A stretch of DNA of 33,050 nt from a bacterium (GTDB lineage Bacteria > Krumholzibacteriota > Krumholzibacteriia > JACNKJ01), in assembly GCA_016873475.1 (NCBI GenBank), contig VGXI01000013.1:1-33050 (forward strand), written 5' to 3'. This document shows, one piece after another, positions 4,185 through 17,257 of this stretch. The first letter of the stretch is position 1. The number at the start of each line of letters is the position of its first letter. The notes below the pieces were generated by a model, which had not been told where the DNA came from, searched no databases, and saw nothing but the letters and a program-made list of their open reading frames with translations. The position numbers and the translations under genes were made by a program.

Positions 4185-4238
4185 GTCCGCGTTCCCTATC
4201 CGCTTCTCCCGCATTACCCTGGCCCAGGATGGATGACC

Positions 4239-5360
4239 ATGGCAGACAAGACCGCCGATCTCGCCGGCCCCGGCGTCAGCACCTACGAGGAGGTCGCCAA
4301 GGCCCTCCCCGTCGGCTACAGGTCCGTGCTCACCCCCAACGAGACGCAGAAGGCCCTCTACGCCGTCAAGCGCGCGATCGAGGACGGCCTGGCCCGCGAA
4401 CTCAACGTGATGCTGGTCCAGTGCCCGCTGATCCTCGAGAAGAGCAGCGGCATGAACGACTACCTGGACCGCGACGGCTCGCGCACCCCGGTGGACTTCC
4501 TGGCCGGCCTCGGCCTGCCCCAGCGCATCGAGGCGCAGGTCGTGCAGGCGGCCACCAAGTGGAAGCGCTTCGCGCTCAAGCAGTACGGCTGCCAGGTCGG
4601 CGAGGGCATCAACACGGACATGCGCGCCGTGCGCAAGGACTACTTCCTGGACCACGACCACAGCAGCTACGTCGACCAGTGGGACTGGGAGCGCGTGATC
4701 ACGCCGGCCGACCGCAACCTCGACTTCCTCACAATGATCGTCAAGAAGATCTGGAAGGTGCTCGTCGAGGCGGAGGAGCTGGCGCACGACATGTATCCCC
4801 AGCTCGACAAGTACGAGAAGATGCCGCGCGAGCTGGTCTTCCTGCACGCCGAGGAGATCCTCGAGCGCTACCCCGACCTCCCGCGCAAGCAGCGCGAGAC
4901 GAAGATCATCCAGGAGCACCCGGCGATCTTCATCTACGGCATCGGCCACACGCTGGACGACGGCTATCCCCACGAGATGCGCGCCGCCGACTACGACGAC
5001 TGGGTCACGCCCAGCGTCGTCAAGAAGGGCAAGCAGATGCACGGCCTCAACGGCGACATCCTGGTGTGGAACAAGATCACGCACCGGCGCCACGAGCTCT
5101 CCAGCATGGGCATCCGCGTCACCAAGGAGACGCTCAAGCAGCAGCTCAAGATCACGGGGCAGGAGCACTTCCTGAACCTGCCCTACCACAAGATGATCCT
5201 GAACGACGAGATCCCGCTCAGCATCGGCGGCGGGCTCGGCCAGAGCCGCATCTACAGCTACATCCTCAAGAAGGCCGCCCTCGGCGAGGTGAGCGTGACG
5301 ATCTGGCCCGAGCAGCTGCACAGGATCTGCGCGGAGAAGAACATCCACCTGCTGCGCTAG
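4239..5360 (+). CDS. asnA: Aspartate-ammonia ligase (ammonia-dependent asparagine synthetase)
   Basis: This enzyme makes asparagine from aspartate, ammonia and ATP in the cytoplasm. It has a class II aminoacyl-tRNA-synthetase-like fold. Family signatures seen here include KWKR followed by GEGINTDMRAVRKD, the highly conserved SYVDQWDWERV, ERYPDL, the block RAADYDDW, the segment LNGDILVWN, ELSSMGIRV, and the C-terminal SIGGGLGQSR. The product is 373 residues, somewhat longer than the 330-residue E. coli enzyme because of an N-terminal extension and small insertions. Three ATGs cluster at 4229, 4233 and 4239. AGGA at 4226-4229 is best spaced for 4239, which I chose; 4233 is in the same frame. 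The gene is convergent with the gatE-gatD operon, so it shares the theme of Asn/Gln and amide metabolism with its neighbours. Confidence 0.95.
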   Translation: MADKTADLAGPGVSTYEEVAKALPVGYRSVLTPNETQKALYAVKRAIEDGLARELNVMLVQCPLILEKSSGMNDYLDRDGSRTPVDFLAGLGLPQRIEAQVVQAATKWKRFALKQYGCQVGEGINTDMRAVRKDYFLDHDHSSYVDQWDWERVITPADRNLDFLTMIVKKIWKVLVEAEELAHDMYPQLDKYEKMPRELVFLHAEEILERYPDLPRKQRETKIIQEHPAIFIYGIGHTLDDGYPHEMRAADYDDWVTPSVVKKGKQMHGLNGDILVWNKITHRRHELSSMGIRVTKETLKQQLKITGQEHFLNLPYHKMILNDEIPLSIGGGLGQSRIYSYILKKAALGEVSVTIWPEQLHRICAEKNIHLLR

Positions 5361-5850: not shown

Positions 5851-7287
5851 TTACTTCCGGTGGTCGCGCACGAAGGCCTCGAGCTCGGGCAGCCCGCCCT
5901 GGAAGAGCAGGTACCCATCGTGGGTCTCGCGCTCGGTGATGTCGTCCGCCACCGGCGTTGTCATGATGCGCTTCAGCTCGGCGAGGTCGGCGCTCTGCCC
6001 CAGTGCCCAGCCCAGCTTCATGTAGGCCACCTCGGGCAGCATGTTAGCCAAGGGCACCACGCCCATCTCCATGATCTCGCGGCCCGTCTCGTAGACGTAC
6101 ATCTGCACGTAGCCCCAGAGCGTCTGCACGGTCATGAAGACGGCGACGCCCGCCGCGCGCGCCCGCTCGAGCGCCGGGTAGACCGGCCGGTTGACGTGCC
6201 CGAGCCCCGTCCCCGCGATGACGATGCCGCGGTAGCCGTGGTCGATGAGCGAATCGAAGATGTCCGCCTTCATGCCCGGGTAGTAGTAGACGATGGCGAT
6301 GCGGTCGTCGAAGACCGGCGTCGCCCGGAAACCGGCCAGCGCGGCCGCCTTCGCCTCGGCCCCCCGGCCCGCCACCGCCGTGCGGAAGCGGCGCTGGTTG
6401 TAGTCGCGGCGCAGGGGGCGCAGGCCTTCGCGGCTCACGGTGGCCAGTGGCGTGTCGCTGATCGTGCGGAAGGTGCTGCGGTAGCTCGAGTGCATCTTGC
6501 GCACGCGGGTGCCGCGGTGGAGCAGGCCGTACTGGTCGCTCGTCGGCCCGAACATGCAGACCATCACCTCGGCGATGTCGCCCTGGCCCGCGGTCACCGC
6601 GGCGTGGATCAGGTTCAGCGCCGCGTCCGAGCTGGGGCGGTCGCTGCTCCTCTGGCTGCCGACCATCACGATCGGCACCGGCGGGTTCTGGAGCATGAAG
6701 CTGAGCACGGCGGCCGTGTGGGCCATCGTGTCCGTCCCGTGGCCGATGACGATGCCATCCACGCCCTCGCGGATCGCCGCCTCCACCGCGCGCGCAGTGC
6801 CGATCCACTGCTCGGGTCCCATGTTCTCGCTGAAGACGCCGTAGAGCTTCTCGGTCTCGAGATTGCAGACCTCGGCCAGCTCGGGCACCGAGCCGTAGAG
6901 CTCCCCCGGCGTGAAGGCCGGAATCACGGCGCCCGTGCGGTAGTCGAGGCGGCTCGCGATCGTGCCGCCGGTGCCGAAGAGCCTGACGAAGGGCTTGCCC
7001 GCGTCGCGCGGGAAGGCCCTCTCGGGCACCTTGTAACGGGCTTCCTTGCGCCCCACCTCGACGAGCCGCGCCACGGTGTCGACCTGCAGGCCGACGTTGT
7101 AGCCACTGGCCAGCTTGAGGACGAGGTGCTCGGCATCGGCCGTTTCGCTGCGCGGCAGGATGATGCCGCGGAAGTCGCCCTGGCTGGTCTCGGCCTCGAC
7201 CTCGCTCCAGACGCCGACCCCGTGCCGCTCGAGCAGCGCGCGCCCAGCGCCGCGATAGCCCTTGAAGCGCTCCCCGCTTTCGCTCAT
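5851..7287 (-). CDS. gatD: Glutamyl-tRNA(Gln) amidotransferase subunit D (archaeal type)
   Basis: GatD releases ammonia from Gln or Asn and passes it to GatE, which converts Glu-tRNA(Gln) to Gln-tRNA(Gln). The 478-residue product has the two-part GatD layout. An N-terminal Tudor-like domain (about residues 20-85, including RGIILPRSETADAEHLVLKL and SGYNVGLQV) precedes an L-asparaginase-type amidase domain. The first catalytic-Thr motif FGTGGTIAS is at residues 104-112 and the second motif HGTDT at 183-187, followed by MAHTAAVLSFML. The N-terminal domain separates GatD from plain type I/II asparaginases. The start overlaps the gatE stop as ATGA, showing translational coupling. The family is regarded as characteristic of archaea, so its presence among clearly bacterial genes is unusual. 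An unrelated asparaginase role is unlikely given gatE next door. Confidence 0.9.
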   Translation of the reverse strand: MSESGERFKGYRGAGRALLERHGVGVWSEVEAETSQGDFRGIILPRSETADAEHLVLKLASGYNVGLQVDTVARLVEVGRKEARYKVPERAFPRDAGKPFVRLFGTGGTIASRLDYRTGAVIPAFTPGELYGSVPELAEVCNLETEKLYGVFSENMGPEQWIGTARAVEAAIREGVDGIVIGHGTDTMAHTAAVLSFMLQNPPVPIVMVGSQRSSDRPSSDAALNLIHAAVTAGQGDIAEVMVCMFGPTSDQYGLLHRGTRVRKMHSSYRSTFRTISDTPLATVSREGLRPLRRDYNQRRFRTAVAGRGAEAKAAALAGFRATPVFDDRIAIVYYYPGMKADIFDSLIDHGYRGIVIAGTGLGHVNRPVYPALERARAAGVAVFMTVQTLWGYVQMYVYETGREIMEMGVVPLANMLPEVAYMKLGWALGQSADLAELKRIMTTPVADDITERETHDGYLLFQGGLPELEAFVRDHRK

Positions 7288-9230
7288 CGGCGTCGCCCTC
7301 CCTTCGGCGCGGGGACCGGCGCCCCGCGCGTCGCGGCCGCGAGCTGCCCGCGCAGGCGCGCGCCGGCGCAGCTCACGCCCAGGCTCTCGCGCAGGCGCCC
7401 GAGGCGATAGCGTTCGAGGCTTTCGCCCGCCAGCGGTCGAGCCGGCGGCGGCAGGGCGGCGAGCGCGCTCGCCAGGCGCGCCGCCAGGGCCGCGTCGTCG
7501 AGTGGCGGCGGCGGCACGGGCCGCTCGCGCCCGCCGCTGCGCGCCCAGCGCGCGAGGGCGGCGCGGTCCGTCTCCCGCGGCGCCGTCGCCAGGAACTCCG
7601 GTAGCCAGTCGAGGCCCACCGCGTCGGGGAGACGCAGCCCCTCCCGCTCGAGCGAGCGCCAGTGGGCCGTGAGCGCGAAGGCCAGGCGTCGCAGCGCGGC
7701 CGCATCACCTTTCAGCGCGCCCCTCAGGGCGAGAAAGCTGCCCGCTCGCCCCTGGCGCTGGAGCTGGCCGGCCAGTTCGGTGCCGAGGCCCGCGGCGGCG
7801 AGCGCGGCCAACTCATCCCAGGGGCGCGGCGGCAGCGCGGCGCGCAGGGCCTCCCAGTCCCGCGTAGGCAGGGGCCGCGGCGGCAGGTCGGTGTCGGGGT
7901 ACATGCGGTCGGGTCCGGGCAGCACGCGCTCGAAGCGCGTGGTGCCGTCCGGCTGGGCCTGGCGCGTCTCGCGCGGCACGCCGGCCAGCGCCTCCTGCGC
8001 GCGCAGCTCGATCTCGCCGAGGGCGGTCTCGAGGTCGCGCGGCCCGCCCCAGACCATCAGCATCGGCGTGTCGTCGCTGACGCCGAGGATCTGCCGCACC
8101 CGGTGCCACTCGCTCCAGGTCGGCCCGTCGTCCAGCTGCTCGCTGGAGACCAGGTTCGGATTCCGATCCAGGCAGGCCACCACGCGCACGCGGTCCCGGA
8201 ATTCGCCGAGGAAGCGCAGGCCGGGCTGCACCTCCCGCCGCAAGACACCCTCGAAGCCCGGCAGAGCGATGACACCGAGCCGGTCCCCCCGCGCGAGCGC
8301 CTTCTGCACCGGCCGGTACTGGCAGTTCTTGAACAGGCCCGTCACCTCGGCGCGCAGGCCCTGGTAGCCGACGGCCGGCAACCCGCGCCCCGCCAGGATC
8401 TCGCGGATCTCGAGCAGGCTCTTCTGACGCAGGGCCTCGTTGTGCACGAGCCGGCCGATGGCCGGAATGCGGCTCACGCCCTTGATCTCGATGCGCGTGC
8501 CCCCGCGCACGCTCACGTTCACGTCCTGCCGGGCAGCGCCAGCGCCGCGGCGCACCTTGCCGGTGGCGCGCGTGAGCCGGCGCACGGCCTGCGCCGCCGC
8601 CTCGACCGCGGCCGGCGTGTGGAGCGCCGGCGCCGTGACGACCTCGACGAGCGGCATGCCCAGGCGGTCGGTGCGGTAGCAGCGCAGGTGCCCCTGGTCG
8701 GAGAGCTCACGGCTCGAGTCCTCCTCGATGCTGAGCTGGAGGATCGCGAGCGGCACACCGTCCACCGGCAGCTCGCCCTGGACGCCGAGGATCGCCGTGC
8801 GCTGGAAGCCGGTCGGGATCGAGCCGTCGAGGTACTGCTTGCGCATCACGTGCAGCTCGCCCACCGGTTGCAGGCCGAGCAGCAGGGTGATCTCCATGGC
8901 GATGCCAAGCGCCTCCTGGTCGATCTCGAAGGGCGGTGCGTCGTCCATCTCGTAGGTGCAGACGCTCTCCTTGTTGAGCCGGTAGAGGATCTCCTTGCGC
9001 GTCTTGAACTCCATGAGCGCCGTGCCGTCGTACTCGCCGAGCTCGGAGAGCGTGGGCCGCATGTGGCGGAGGATCTCGGCGTCGAAGGCGTCGCTGTAGC
9101 GGCCGGCCGGGCAGCGGCAGAAGAGCTTGCGGCGCGTCGAGAGCTGGACGTGCACCTCCAGGCCGGCCTTGAGGCCCAGGGCGCTGTAGTCGTCGGCGCT
9201 GAGGGTGCCGTACTCGGGCAGCTGGGACAT
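7284..9230 (-). CDS. gatE: Glutamyl-tRNA(Gln) amidotransferase subunit E (archaeal type)
   Basis: GatE binds Glu-tRNA(Gln), phosphorylates the glutamyl group with ATP and amidates it with ammonia from GatD. The 648-residue product starts with the GatB/GatE kinase cradle: GLKAGLEVHVQLSTRRKLFCRCP, then VCTYEMDD and IEEDSSRE. The pattern RQDVNVSVRGGTRIEIKGV is the typical GatB/E block. About residues 290-440 form the AspRS-like GAD insertion found in GatE but not GatB. The C-terminal part is the helical and tail region. I start it at 9230 (MSQLPEYG) because GGAG precedes it at a suitable distance and it is close to the putative promoter; an in-frame upstream ATG at 9266 lies on top of the predicted -10. 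It forms an operon with gatD. Confidence 0.92.
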   Translation of the reverse strand: MSQLPEYGTLSADDYSALGLKAGLEVHVQLSTRRKLFCRCPAGRYSDAFDAEILRHMRPTLSELGEYDGTALMEFKTRKEILYRLNKESVCTYEMDDAPPFEIDQEALGIAMEITLLLGLQPVGELHVMRKQYLDGSIPTGFQRTAILGVQGELPVDGVPLAILQLSIEEDSSRELSDQGHLRCYRTDRLGMPLVEVVTAPALHTPAAVEAAAQAVRRLTRATGKVRRGAGAARQDVNVSVRGGTRIEIKGVSRIPAIGRLVHNEALRQKSLLEIREILAGRGLPAVGYQGLRAEVTGLFKNCQYRPVQKALARGDRLGVIALPGFEGVLRREVQPGLRFLGEFRDRVRVVACLDRNPNLVSSEQLDDGPTWSEWHRVRQILGVSDDTPMLMVWGGPRDLETALGEIELRAQEALAGVPRETRQAQPDGTTRFERVLPGPDRMYPDTDLPPRPLPTRDWEALRAALPPRPWDELAALAAAGLGTELAGQLQRQGRAGSFLALRGALKGDAAALRRLAFALTAHWRSLEREGLRLPDAVGLDWLPEFLATAPRETDRAALARWARSGGRERPVPPPPLDDAALAARLASALAALPPPARPLAGESLERYRLGRLRESLGVSCAGARLRGQLAAATRGAPVPAPKGGRRR

Positions 9231-9264
9231 CGGGGCTCCGGTGGCTAAGGGCTTGCAGCCTCGC

Positions 9265-9294
9265 AAGGTACAGGAAGCGGCCGCCCAGTGCCAG
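9265..9294 (-). promoter_or_regulatory. Putative gatE-gatD promoter
   Basis: On the minus strand CTGGCA (9294-9289) and TACCTT (9270-9265) are 18 bp apart. The same pair with the same spacing (TTGGCA, 18 bp, TACCTT) is found upstream of the DUF362 gene at 27344. This would give a leader of about 28 nt before the gatE start at 9230. Confidence 0.4.
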
Positions 9295-9548: not shown

Positions 9549-10598
9549 ATGCTGACAAAGCTCAAGCTCGCCGCCGTTCTCATGCTCATGCTGGTCGCGA
9601 CCTCGGCGTTCGCCGTCCAGCGCGTGGTGCTCGTCGAGTACTTCACGAACACTAGCTGACCCTACTGCCCGACTGCGGACGCAGTCTTTGACGCTTTCGG
9701 CGACAATCACACGGACGACGAGGCCGCGCTCGTCTGCTGGCACATGAGCTGGCCCGGCTACGATCCCTTCTACCAGCACAACACCGTCGACAACAACGGC
9801 CGCCGCAGCTTCTATGGCATCAACGGGATACCGGCCTGGAAGATGGACGGTTACCTGAACCCCAATGCCGGCACGGTGAATGCGCTCTACGCGAGCGAGT
9901 CGGCCATTCCGACCCCGGTGACCCTGACGATCGTCGGCGCCTACGACGACGTCACCGGCTACGTTCAGTACACGGTGACGGCTTCCACGAACGAGACGCT
10001 GCCCACCGGCAGCTACCGCATCTTCGTCGCGCTGACGGAAACCGACATCTACTTCCAGGGCTCCAACGGCGTCCTCTGGCATCCGGACGTGATGCGCGAC
10101 TGCTTCCCGACCCACGCCGGCACGGACGTCACCTTCAGCGGAGGTTTCCCCCAGGTCGCAACGGTCTCGGGCGACTTCACGCTGAACTCCATCTACAACT
10201 GGAACAACTGCCGTCTCGTGGCTTGGGTGCAGGACGTCACTGGCCAGAAGAAGGTCCAGCAGGCGGTGGCGGCCTTCGTGAGCGGTCTCGACCTGACGGA
10301 CGCCCCCGCGGCGCCCGCCCGGGCGATGGCCCTCGGCGCGAACTACCCGAATCCCTTCAACCCCAGCACGACGATCCCAGTCAGCGTCGAGCGCACCTCG
10401 GCGGCGCGGCTGGACATCATCGCGCCTGACGGCCGGCTCGTGCGCACCCTTCACGAGGGCGAGCTGCCTGCGGGCACGCGCGAGTTCAGCTGGGACGGCA
10501 CCGCGGCCAACGGCCAGGGCGTGGCCAGCGGCGTCTATCTCGTGCGGCTGCACAGCGCGGATGGCCTGCAGAGCCGCCATCTGGTCCTCATGAAATGA
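9549..10598 (+). CDS. Secreted thioredoxin-like selenoprotein (UxxC) with FlgD-type C-terminal domain, paralogue 1
   Basis: One reading frame of 349 residues runs from ATG 9549 through an in-frame TGA (9657-9659, codon 37) to a normal TGA stop at 10596. A signal peptide occupies residues 1-22. The sequence VVLVEYFTNTS-U37-P-Y-C40-P follows, in the position of the CxxC of thioredoxin-fold proteins of the Omp28-related type. Later conserved blocks are DPFYQHNTVDNNGRR and YGINGIPAW, the latter with a likely cis-Pro. A beta-rich middle domain follows, and the last 90 residues are a FlgD-Ig-like sorting domain (GANYPNPFNPSTTIP). A SECIS-like hairpin lies just after the TGA. The redox function is inferred from UxxC; the substrate is unknown. 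Reading TGA as a stop would leave a bare signal peptide and an orphan domain with no start site. The next gene repeats the whole arrangement. Confidence 0.85.
9657..9686 (+). promoter_or_regulatory. In-frame UGA (Sec37) and SECIS-like hairpin, paralogue 1
   Basis: After TGA 9657-9659, GACTGC (9671-9676) pairs perfectly with GCAGTC (9681-9686) around the loop GGAC. The loop begins 18 nt after the UGA and opens with G. A small apical loop with a guanosine among its first two bases, 16-37 nt from the UGA, fits the general bacterial SECIS model recognised by SelB. Confidence 0.75.
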
Positions 10599-10655
10599 GC
10601 TCGCCTCCCTCCCCCTCGCGCGCGTTGTTTCGCGCGCGCGGGGAGGGAAGCGAGC
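10599..10655 (+). terminator. Long hairpin with loop TTGTTT after paralogue 1
   Basis: The arms 10599-10624 and 10631-10655 form an imperfect stem of about 23 paired bases around TTGTTT (10625-10630), with CG flanking the loop on both sides. It begins directly after the stop codon and precedes a separate classical terminator. Confidence 0.65.
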
Positions 10656-10701
10656 GTCCCAGCGCGCGCGAGCCGGAGGGCAGCTCGCTGGTTTGGAAGA
10701 C

Positions 10702-10728
10702 AGGGGGGGCCGCTGGGCTCCCCCTTTT
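10702..10728 (+). terminator. Intrinsic terminator after paralogue 1
   Basis: A 10-bp stem (10702-10711 with 10716-10725, one G-T pair) around a GCTG loop is followed by a run of T. It is nearly identical to the terminator after paralogue 2 at 11959-11985. Confidence 0.8.
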
Positions 10729-10753
10729 CGTTGCCCGACCGAGATCCTTGCGC

Positions 10754-10783
10754 TTGCGCCGAGAAAGCTGAAGAGGCTAGACT
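10754..10783 (+). promoter_or_regulatory. Putative promoter of the second selenoprotein gene
   Basis: TTGCGC (10754-10759) and TAGACT (10778-10783) are 18 bp apart, giving a leader of about 45 nt before ATG 10834. The site lies just after the terminator of paralogue 1, so the two genes are probably transcribed separately. Confidence 0.45.
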
Positions 10784-10833
10784 TATTTTGTCTCCACGCA
10801 GTGACCGCCACCCTCGCCCGCAAGGAGGACGCA

Positions 10834-11889
10834 ATGAACCGTCGCGCTCTCTGTCTGAGCATCCTGGCGTTGCTCGCCCTTGCGCTGCCAGCCAGCGCCG
10901 TCGAACGCATCGTCCTGCTCGAGAAGTTCACGAACACGGCCTGAGCGGCCTGCGGATCGGCGGAGCCGATCTTCGTGCAGTTCGTCCTGGACCACCCCGA
11001 CTGCGTCGCCTTCATGCCGCATGTCAACTGGCCCCAAAGCAACGACCCCTTCTACGTCCACAACACCGCCGACAACAACGGCCGCCGTGCGCTCTACGGC
11101 GTCAATGCCGTGCCCTTCGAGATCCTCGACGGCGTGCTCGAGCCGGTCTACTTCTACACCTACGCCCGCATCCTGGCCGCCTACAACACGCGCAAGGCGG
11201 TGCCGACCGACGTCACGCTGAGCTACACGGGCCTCTACGTGCCCAGCACAGGTCAGGTGGACTTCACCGTCACGGCCTCGACGACCAGCGCCCTGCCCGC
11301 GGGGGACTTCCGCCTGCACATCGTCCTCACCGAGAGCGGCATCTTCTACGACGCTGCCAACGGGATCGACTACCACGAATTCACGCTGCGCAAGATGTTC
11401 CCGACCTTCAACGGAACGAGCGTGAGCTTCAGCGGCGGCTTCCCGCAGACGGCGCAGGCCTCGACGAGCTTCACGCTCAATCCGGCCTACGTGCCGGCCA
11501 ACTGCAAGCTCGTCTACTTCCTGCAGAACCACACGACGAAGGAGGTCTTCCAGGCCGGCCAGATCACGCTGGACGACATCCAGGACCTGACGGACGTCGC
11601 CGAGCTGCCGCTGCGCCTGCGCCTGGGGGCGAACTACCCCAATCCCTTCAACCCGTCCACGACCATTCCCCTCAGCCTCGATGCCGAGGCCAGCGTGCGC
11701 CTGGCGGTGCACGACGCCGCGGGCCGGGAGCTGCGCGTGCTGCACGACGGCGCGCTGCCGGCCGGCAGTCGCGAGTTCCACTGGGATGGGCGTGACGCGG
11801 CAGGTCAGACCCTGCCCAGCGGCGTCTATCTGTTTTTTGTGACCGGCGCCGGCGAAACCGCCGGCCGGCGCGCGCTCTTGCTGAAATAG
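10834..11889 (+). CDS. Secreted thioredoxin-like selenoprotein (UxxC) with FlgD-type C-terminal domain, paralogue 2
   Basis: The frame of 351 residues runs from ATG 10834, preceded by the strong ribosome binding site AAGGAGG at 10822-10828. It continues through TGA 10942-10944 (again codon 37) to a TAG stop. The signal peptide ends near ASA (residue 22). The sequence then reads IVLLEKFTNTA-U37-A-A-C40-G, aligned with paralogue 1 without gaps from the start codon. Shared blocks include NDPFYVHNTADNNGRR, the YGVNAVPF segment, SFSGGFPQ, and the C-terminal GANYPNPFNPSTTIP domain. The cysteine at position 40 is kept, while the two residues between U and C differ (AA against PY). As before, the frame is open on both sides of the TGA and nothing else in the gene is broken. 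The inferred role is an extracytoplasmic thiol or selenol redox protein. Confidence 0.85.
10942..10971 (+). promoter_or_regulatory. In-frame UGA (Sec37) and SECIS-like hairpin, paralogue 2
   Basis: After TGA 10942-10944, GATCGGC (10955-10961) pairs perfectly with GCCGATC (10965-10971) around the loop GGA. The loop starts 18 nt after the UGA, exactly as in paralogue 1. CTGC (10950-10953) can also pair with GCAG (10977-10980) as a lower stem. The stem sequences of the two genes are unrelated, so the fold and spacing, not the sequence, are conserved. Confidence 0.75.
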
Positions 11890-11893
11890 CTCG

Positions 11894-11940
11894 CTCGCCG
11901 CCTCTCGCGCCCGAAACAACGGGCGCGACCCGGCGGCGAG
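11894..11940 (+). terminator. Long hairpin with loop AAACAA after paralogue 2
   Basis: CTCGCCGCC (11894-11902) pairs with 11932-11940, and TCGCGCCCG (11905-11913) with 11920-11928, separated by a small internal loop. The apical loop AAACAA is the reverse complement of TTGTTT, again flanked by CG. It starts just after the stop codon. Confidence 0.65.
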
Positions 11941-11958
11941 TTCGCTTGGCGAGATGCG

Positions 11959-11985
11959 AGGGGGAGCCGCTGGGCTCCCCCTTTT
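11959..11985 (+). terminator. Intrinsic terminator after paralogue 2
   Basis: A perfect 10-bp stem, AGGGGGAGCC (11959-11968) with 11973-11982, around a GCTG loop is followed by T residues. It is a near copy of the terminator at 10702-10728. Confidence 0.85.
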
Positions 11986-12006
11986 GCCTGCCCGCCGAGT
12001 CTGGGG

Positions 12007-15247: not shown

Positions 15248-15298
15248 ATGCGCCATGAATCCCCGGTTCGGCTCACCCCTCGCGCCCGGCAGGTGATC

Positions 15299-17257
15299 AT
15301 GGCCCCGCGACCCCTGCTCGCCGCCTTGTTGCTGCTCGCGCCGCTGCTCGCCCACGGCGAGGAGGCGCCGGCGCCTCAGTACATCGCCCTGGACGACAGC
15401 ACCACCCTCAAGGTCTACGCCCTCGACGCCGTCGTGGTCACCGGCTCGCGCACCGAGCAACGCCTGGCCGACGTCACGATCGCCACCGAGCTGATCCGGC
15501 GCGAGGACCTCGCGCGCTCGGGCGCGCCCGACCTCGCCGACTTCCTCGAGAAGCAGGCGGGCATCGTCGTCAACCACTCGCTCTTCGGCAGCGGCGTGCA
15601 GCTGCAGGGTCTGGGCAGCGAGTACGTGCTGGTGCTCGTCAACGGTGAGCGCGCACTGGGCCGCAAGGGTGGCGTCATCGATCTCTCGCGCTACGCCACC
15701 GACAACATCGAGCGCATCGAGGTGGTGAAGGGCAACCAGTCGGCGCTCTACGGCGCCGATGCGATCGGCGGCGTCATCAACATCATCACCCGCGGCAGCG
15801 AGCGGCCGCTCGAGATGGACCTGCGCGGGGACTTCGGCGACGGCGGCGAGCGGGACCTCGGTGCCAGTCTCGGCTACCGCGGGCAGCGCTGGACCAGCCG
15901 GACGACCGGCAGCTGGGACGAGGCGGAACCCTACGACCTTGCGCCCGCCGATCCCGAGACGAGCGTCGACGGCTTCCAGGAGCTGAGCCTGGCCAACCAC
16001 AGCGAGTGGGACCTGGCCGATCGCCTGCAGCTCAAGGGCGACCTCAGCTACATCTCGCGCGACCAGGAGGGTGTGGACGGCGGCACCCTGGCCTCGCCGG
16101 CCGTCTTCGACCGCACGGCCAAGACCGAGATCTTCGCCTGCGCGCTCGGCCCCAACCACCATGCCGCCAGCGGCAATCGCACGCGGGGCAGCCTGCAGTT
16201 CAGCTACTACCTCGACCAGTACCTGGAGGACCAGCGCGGCTCGACGGCCCTCGATCAGTACCAGGAGACCCGGCAGCGTCTGCTCCACGGCTCCGCCCAG
16301 CACGACCACCTGCTGCCCGGCCGCCACCTGCTCTCCACCGGCCTGGAGGCCTTTCAGGAGTGGATCGAGACCGAGCGCCTCGCGAGCGGTGCCGAGGAGC
16401 GCGAGCGGCTCGGCCTCTTCCTGCAGGATCAGTGGGAGCAGGGACCGGAGGGGCGGCTCAAGCTGATCGGCGGCCTGCGCCTCGACCACGACTCGCAGTT
16501 CGGCACCCACCTGACGCCCAAGCTCAGCCTGCGTCGCGACCTCGGTCGCTCTGTGATCCTGCGCGCGGGACTCGGCCAGGGCTTCCGGGCGCCGGACTTC
16601 AAGGAGCTGTACATCTACTTCGCCCATCCGGCGGTCGGCTACGTGGTCTACGGCAACCCGGACCTCGAGCCCGAGCTCTCGCGCAGCGCCAATCTCGGCC
16701 TCGAGTGGCGCAGCAACCAGGGCTTCTGGCTCTCGGTGAACGCCTTCTACCACGACTTCGACAATCTCATCCAGGGCGTGCTCACCGACGAGCTGGTCGG
16801 TGGTCTCCGGAAGGCGGTCTACGTGAACGTCGCCGAGGCGACGATCCGCGGCCTCGAGTCGAACCTGCACCTGCGTCCCCTGCCGGCTCTGCAGGCCGAA
16901 CTGGGCTACGCCTACCTCGACAGCCGCGACGAGGAGACGGGCTCCATCCTCGACGGCCGCCCCCGCCATCGGGGCACGCTGAATCTGGACTACCGCTTCG
17001 TGCGCGCGCGCGCGAACCTCGCCCTGCGCGCCTCGCTGGTCGGCGAGCGCAGCTTCACCCAGGAGACCAGCGGCCTCGCCTCGACCAAGGCCGATCCCTA
17101 CGCCCTGCTCGACCTGCGCCTGAGCAAGGAGCTGGGCGAGCACCTCGGCCTCTCGCTGGCGGTCAAGAACGTTCTCGATGCGGGCGATCACGACTACCTG
17201 CGGGTCGCGCCGCGCCGCTTCGTCGCCGGCTTCAGCCTCAAGCACGGCAACCGCTGA
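15299..17257 (+). CDS. TonB-dependent outer-membrane receptor, probably for haem
   Basis: The 652-residue product has a signal peptide (residues 1-20) and then a plug domain: VVVTGSRTEQRLADVTIATELI, DLADFLEKQAGIVVN, QLQGLGSEYVLVLVNGERALGR, and the classic end IERIEVVKGNQSALYGADAIGGVINIITR. The rest is a 22-strand-type barrel with GLGQGFRAPDFKELY and a C-terminal strand ending FVAGFSLKHGNR. I prefer ATG 15299 to the in-frame ATG 15248, because AGGTGA precedes it and the signal peptide begins there. The next gene encodes a HmuY-type haem-binding lipoprotein, so haem import as in HmuR/HmuY systems is the best inference. Other substrates such as cobalamin or siderophores remain possible. Confidence 0.92.
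   Translation: MAPRPLLAALLLLAPLLAHGEEAPAPQYIALDDSTTLKVYALDAVVVTGSRTEQRLADVTIATELIRREDLARSGAPDLADFLEKQAGIVVNHSLFGSGVQLQGLGSEYVLVLVNGERALGRKGGVIDLSRYATDNIERIEVVKGNQSALYGADAIGGVINIITRGSERPLEMDLRGDFGDGGERDLGASLGYRGQRWTSRTTGSWDEAEPYDLAPADPETSVDGFQELSLANHSEWDLADRLQLKGDLSYISRDQEGVDGGTLASPAVFDRTAKTEIFACALGPNHHAASGNRTRGSLQFSYYLDQYLEDQRGSTALDQYQETRQRLLHGSAQHDHLLPGRHLLSTGLEAFQEWIETERLASGAEERERLGLFLQDQWEQGPEGRLKLIGGLRLDHDSQFGTHLTPKLSLRRDLGRSVILRAGLGQGFRAPDFKELYIYFAHPAVGYVVYGNPDLEPELSRSANLGLEWRSNQGFWLSVNAFYHDFDNLIQGVLTDELVGGLRKAVYVNVAEATIRGLESNLHLRPLPALQAELGYAYLDSRDEETGSILDGRPRHRGTLNLDYRFVRARANLALRASLVGERSFTQETSGLASTKADPYALLDLRLSKELGEHLGLSLAVKNVLDAGDHDYLRVAPRRFVAGFSLKHGNR

Follow-up and report, generated by a model that had tools for sequence, protein, structure and literature searches.

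Tandem genes for predicted secreted thioredoxin-like selenoproteins of the Omp28/HBP35 type in a Krumholzibacteriota genome

Results

Two adjacent genes with an in-frame TGA at codon 37

The window, that is, the whole stretch of 33,050 nucleotides analyzed here, contains two adjacent genes on the forward strand, each predicted to encode a secreted Omp28/HBP35-like selenoprotein. Gene 1 (9549..10598) starts with ATG, encodes 349 aa and ends with a TGA stop, and gene 2 (10834..11889) starts with ATG, encodes 351 aa and ends with TAG. The two proteins are 46% identical. Judged by eye, both N-termini are signal-peptide-like (MLTKLKLAAVLMLMLVATSAFA, 9549..9614, in gene 1), and they are followed by the motifs VVLVEYFTNTS-U-PYC in gene 1 and IVLLEKFTNTA-U-AAC in gene 2. 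The U of these motifs corresponds to a TGA at codon 37, located at 9657..9659 in gene 1 (UPYC), where it aligned with the Cys (TGC/TGT) of homologues, and at 10942..10944 in gene 2 (UAAC), where it also aligned with their Cys. Codon 40 is TGC (Cys) in both genes, and apart from TGA37 neither frame holds another internal stop. The coordinates and translations agreed with the preliminary description of this DNA, which had reported TGA37 and Cys40 in both paralogues and frames open on both sides of the TGA. The same description had treated TGA as an ordinary stop codon in the window, and this codon indeed terminates gene 1, gatE (7284-9266, reverse strand) and a TonB receptor gene (15248-17257).

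A 78-nt stretch is repeated 3' of both genes (10660-10737 and 11917-11994, 76%). After gene 1 this repeat includes a hairpin on the forward strand (10702..10725) that could be an intrinsic terminator; terminator-like sites were no commoner than in shuffled sequence. Because this terminator-like stretch follows each gene, the tandem duplication probably included the 3' flank. An Rfam search of the window returned no match at the gathering score.

Selenocysteine machinery of the genome

The source genome is a 3.6 Mb metagenome assembly of 425 contigs with 4.99% contamination. The genes selA, selB and selD and a tRNA-Sec (selC) with the anticodon TCA (UCA in the RNA) were all found in it, on contigs other than that of the window, so that each of the four components named for checking in the preliminary description is accounted for. 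The selD gene itself contains an in-frame TGA, within the motif GGUSAK. Across the phylum, 78 of the 80 genomes had a selA match, which in 77 was over the cut-off, and selB was detected in all 46 good-quality genomes. As nearly the whole phylum carries selA and selB, contamination is unlikely as the source of this machinery. We also found selA in both genomes carrying the Sec relatives L057 and L058.

Exchange of Sec and Cys among homologues

We collected 138 homologues from two phyla, 68 with UxxC and 70 with CxxC, and the two residues occupied a single alignment column. Each in-frame TGA read within the domain coincided with the codon for the first CxxC cysteine. In Krumholzibacteriota, the family was present in 35 of 80 genomes, and all 23 distinct TGA sites lay on the first CxxC Cys of 52 Cys homologues. 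In Candidatus Neomarinimicrobiota, the phylum of L058, it was present in 90 of 245 genomes, about 70 of which had one TGA as counted from the listing; in the loci read, the in-domain TGA was always at the same active-site codon. The presence of selB and selC and the Sec/Cys conservation at residue 37 were the two points on which the earlier proposal could have failed, and it held on both.

If TGA37 were a real stop, the genes would have decayed or the downstream frames would begin internally, and mechanical ORF finding does give frames of 284 and 304 aa that begin 3' of the TGA (internal codons 9744 and 10975). However, the same catalytic codon recurs in the 68 homologues with intact flanking frames and is otherwise Cys, and termination at this codon would sever the signal peptide from the remaining protein. 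This reading is already contradicted by conservation, and we consider it very improbable. Genome-wide reassignment of TGA to Trp or Cys would also let the frame run open through the codon. Against it, gene 1, gatE and the TonB receptor gene terminate with TGA, the aligned residue is Cys and never Trp, tRNA-Sec(TCA) and SelA/B/D are encoded in the genome, and the homologous domains show no in-frame TGA besides codon 37; the probability of reassignment is therefore negligible. Neither the reassignment nor the pseudogene reading was retained. From these sequence comparisons, TGA37 almost certainly specifies Sec in both genes.

A scan of the window's own genome revealed a third Sec paralogue (L023, contig C48, FEKFSNTGUSAC) and two Cys paralogues (L024 and L079, on contigs C40 and C219). 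In the tree, L023 was the nearest relative of gene 2. In another genome (G004), Sec, Cys and Sec copies adjoin each other. The tree requires at least six Sec/Cys switches on well-supported branches, which indicates that this exchange has occurred several times.

Several further observations were made among the relatives. In the loci read from Neomarinimicrobiota genomes of 0.7-0.9 Mb (L126-L129, L133 and L134), we observed the Cys form only, which suggests that Sec may have been lost with genome reduction. Two loci of that phylum (L138, G199:C37; L139, G200:C8) each contain three Omp28-related Sec genes clustered in one stretch, so that the other phylum shows tandem multiplication as well. A longer Sec subfamily (L062-L075), mostly of 820-880 aa, occurs in 14 Krumholzibacteriota genomes of one family; it mostly has UPYCP and the hairpin loop GGUC, and the three members tested scored under the NF045500 cut-off. 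Internal TAA or TAG codons in some relatives looked odd at first sight, and nearly all proved to be the normal gene end; the relatives from the 0.7-0.9 Mb genomes with such apparent stops have Cys at the active site. One Sec homologue (L132, G320:C58) has an additional in-frame TAG 58 codons 3' of its Sec codon, which may reflect faulty assembly or decay of this copy.

SECIS-like hairpins downstream of the UGA codons

A SECIS-like hairpin follows the UGA in each gene on the forward strand. The hairpin of gene 1 (9671..9686) has the form GACUGC-GGAC-GCAGUC and that of gene 2 (10956..10970) the form AUCGGC-GGA-GCCGAU, and in both the loop GG lies 20 nt 3' of the U in UGA, in agreement with the position of a SECIS-type loop G (approximately 16-37 nt 3' of UGA). 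In comparison with synonymous shuffles, the gene 1 hairpin alone was not significant (p = 0.108), and the gene 2 hairpin gave p = 0.0045, a value not to be taken at face value given the kinship of the compared sequences. The single minimum-energy fold of either hairpin was not significant against shuffles, so the case for a SECIS element rests on the comparison of homologues. A hairpin score of at least 13 was obtained at 51 of 61 Sec sites and at 1 of 69 Cys sites, a contrast between related sequences whose P values are likewise not to be read at face value. Of the 61 distinct Sec sites, 24 had the loop GG at a distance of 20-21 nt from the U, and most of the others had a near variant. In the nine homologues with a three-base loop, pairing was kept in 54 of 54 pair cells, and two pairs had changed on both sides. 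These results supported SECIS-type elements at the level of the group, with weak support for gene 1 alone.

Domains, fold and active site

The profile, the structural model and conservation together delimited a thioredoxin-like domain in gene 1 (9612..9917), with UxxC and a cis-Pro-like proline (P95). It is followed by an Omp28 beta domain (PF11551) at 9810..10280, and the corresponding domain of gene 2 lies at 11095..11568, all on the forward strand. The PF11551 scores of the two proteins were 42.6 and 42.7 bits, over the gathering cut-off of 34.9. The Pfam matches were Omp28 and FlgD_ig, and those to thioredoxin were weak. The predicted structure of the mature gene 1 protein (mean pLDDT 93.6) consists of a thioredoxin-like domain, a beta domain and a tail, and its best PDB match was HBP35 of Porphyromonas gingivalis (5y1a, E 1.5e-14). 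A profile built from 35 homologues also placed HBP35 first (E 1e-9), and in this alignment the UxxC segment paired with FTAEWCGYC of HBP35. The isolated thioredoxin domain was modeled with a pLDDT of 85; thioredoxins matched it weakly, and no PDB match fell under E 0.001. Among the 35 sequences, the invariant columns were U/C37, C40, a Tyr, the cis-Pro-like proline and a Gly. The model, the profile match to HBP35 and the conserved columns support the thioredoxin-like fold originally proposed, in which Sec takes the first position of CxxC.

A previous study reported that the thioredoxin activity of HBP35 was abolished by changing both active-site cysteines (PMC2907840). Given the match to HBP35, this activity, and the invariance of U/C37, C40 and the cis-Pro-like proline, both proteins are very probably thiol-disulfide oxidoreductases with a Sec nucleophile. 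Their main role could instead lie outside disulfide exchange, for example in hydroperoxide reduction or in the binding of heme or a metal. Hemin binding has been reported for HBP35 (PMC2907840), and a B12/heme-type TonB receptor is encoded in the window. However, UxxC/CxxC and the cis-Pro-like proline, a redox active site, are among the few invariant columns, and such a role appears unlikely.

Probable export and the C-terminal tail

Both proteins end in a FlgD_ig domain resembling a type IX secretion system (T9SS) tail, encoded on the forward strand. The type A-like tail of gene 1 (10338..10595) scored 27.4 bits with TIGR04183, over the cut-off of 23, and that of gene 2 (11635..11886) scored 18.7 bits, under the cut-off. 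Together with the N-termini read by eye, these matches bear out the secretion signal and the C-terminal sorting-type tail noted in the first reading. The same genome encodes homologues of SprA (381 bits) and PorU (430 bits, with neighbours), both over their cut-offs, and dozens of similar C-terminal tails.

Alternatively, the proteins might stay periplasmic, or a different route might bring them to the outer membrane; the FlgD-type tail would then not act as a type IX signal. The score of the gene 2 tail is compatible with this, as are three Sec relatives (L057, L058 and L138) that end in dockerin-like repeats rather than in a FlgD-type tail. By contrast, the SprA and PorU homologues, the many tails of this kind and an architecture equal to that of the type IX cargo HBP35 make such a route rather improbable. 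Type IX export of both proteins to the surface is, from these sequence features, fairly likely.

Neighbouring genes

The two genes lie beside genes for the archaeal Glu-tRNA(Gln) amidotransferase, GatD (5851-7287) and GatE (7284-9266), both on the reverse strand and both over their TIGRFAM cut-offs, on a contig that also holds bacterial genes. According to a 2022 review, archaea are the only organisms in which GatDE now occurs (PMC9499178). An AsnA-like aspartate-ammonia ligase gene (4233-5360, forward strand) adjoins gatDE, and its product scored 283 bits against a curated cut-off of 293.

Discussion

Taken together, the sequence comparisons, the structural model and the analogy with HBP35 make it likely that the two genes encode exported thioredoxin-fold selenoenzymes with a Sec nucleophile and type IX-like surface export. 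In the proposed mechanism, the hairpin just 3' of UGA would recruit SelB and Sec-tRNA(UCA), and the ribosome would insert Sec at UGA37 rather than terminate. The signal peptide would take the protein across the inner membrane, and the FlgD/Por-type tail would most likely direct it through a type IX-like system, with the SprA and PorU homologues, to the cell surface. There the protein would act as HBP35 does in P. gingivalis, but with higher active-site reactivity; U37 would be the attacking residue and C40 the resolving residue. A broader proposal, for and against which we see the chances as balanced, is that an entire branch of selenoproteins reaches the bacterial surface through a type IX-like system and provides an extracellular selenothioredoxin that has been repeatedly swapped with Cys versions and multiplied in tandem.

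Through these findings, the poorly understood GOS_C selenoprotein acquires a recognizable fold relative (HBP35), a domain plan and a probable location. Selenoproteins of the Omp28 type proved common in both phyla and offer numerous natural Sec/Cys pairs, which makes it possible to test what advantage Sec confers extracellularly. Such genes are at risk of being cut or missed in annotation, since the frames 3' of the TGA resemble separate genes.

The preliminary description had regarded these proteins as an undescribed class. This does not hold at the level of the class, as a related one is already known as GOS_C or NF045500; the narrower link between a selenoprotein and a type IX sorting domain does appear new, in that no paper making it was found in the open-licence literature. 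In the same literature, no paper was found naming Omp28 together with selenoproteins, and for selenoproteins and Krumholzibacteria there was nothing beyond a passing co-mention. GOS_C was described in 2008 by Zhang and Gladyshev as a hypothetical selenoprotein with a thioredoxin-like fold and UxxC, represented by 74 Sec and 312 Cys sequences (PMC2398784); the family is thus known from marine metagenomes, and a 2026 review equates it with NF045500, the 'Omp28-related selenoprotein' (PMC13188914). NF045500 was the best NCBIfam family by E-value for both window proteins, at 63.1 and 51.6 bits under a curated cut-off of 200, whereas true members used as positive controls scored 587 and 603 bits. 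On these scores, and in the tree, where they form a separate branch, the window proteins are placed as a divergent sister branch of NF045500 and not as members by the curated rule. This branch may work like the members, with which it shares a signal peptide, the thioredoxin-like fold, UxxC in the same place, an Omp28-type beta domain and a SECIS-like element. The window proteins carry a FlgD/T9SS-like tail, unlike typical members; a relative in another genome (L160) is over the NF045500 cut-off and has a T9SS tail.

Compared with other known systems, the window proteins share the motif and, by inference, the chemistry of bacterial thioredoxin selenoproteins (Trx-like UxxC and TlpA-like), which belong to another family and have neither the Omp28 domain nor the sorting tail. 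The Omp28 family (PF11551, NF033782; PDB 2r2c) has in common with both proteins the beta domain, over the Pfam cut-off; the window proteins differ from it in scoring under the NF033782 cut-off, in having Sec for Cys and in that no lipoprotein signal was noted. HBP35 has thioredoxin, beta and C-terminal type IX domains in the same order, is a surface type IX cargo, and has a catalytic Cys pair that aligns with U37/C40. The differences are that HBP35 has CxxC where the window proteins have UxxC, and that hemin binding has been reported for HBP35.
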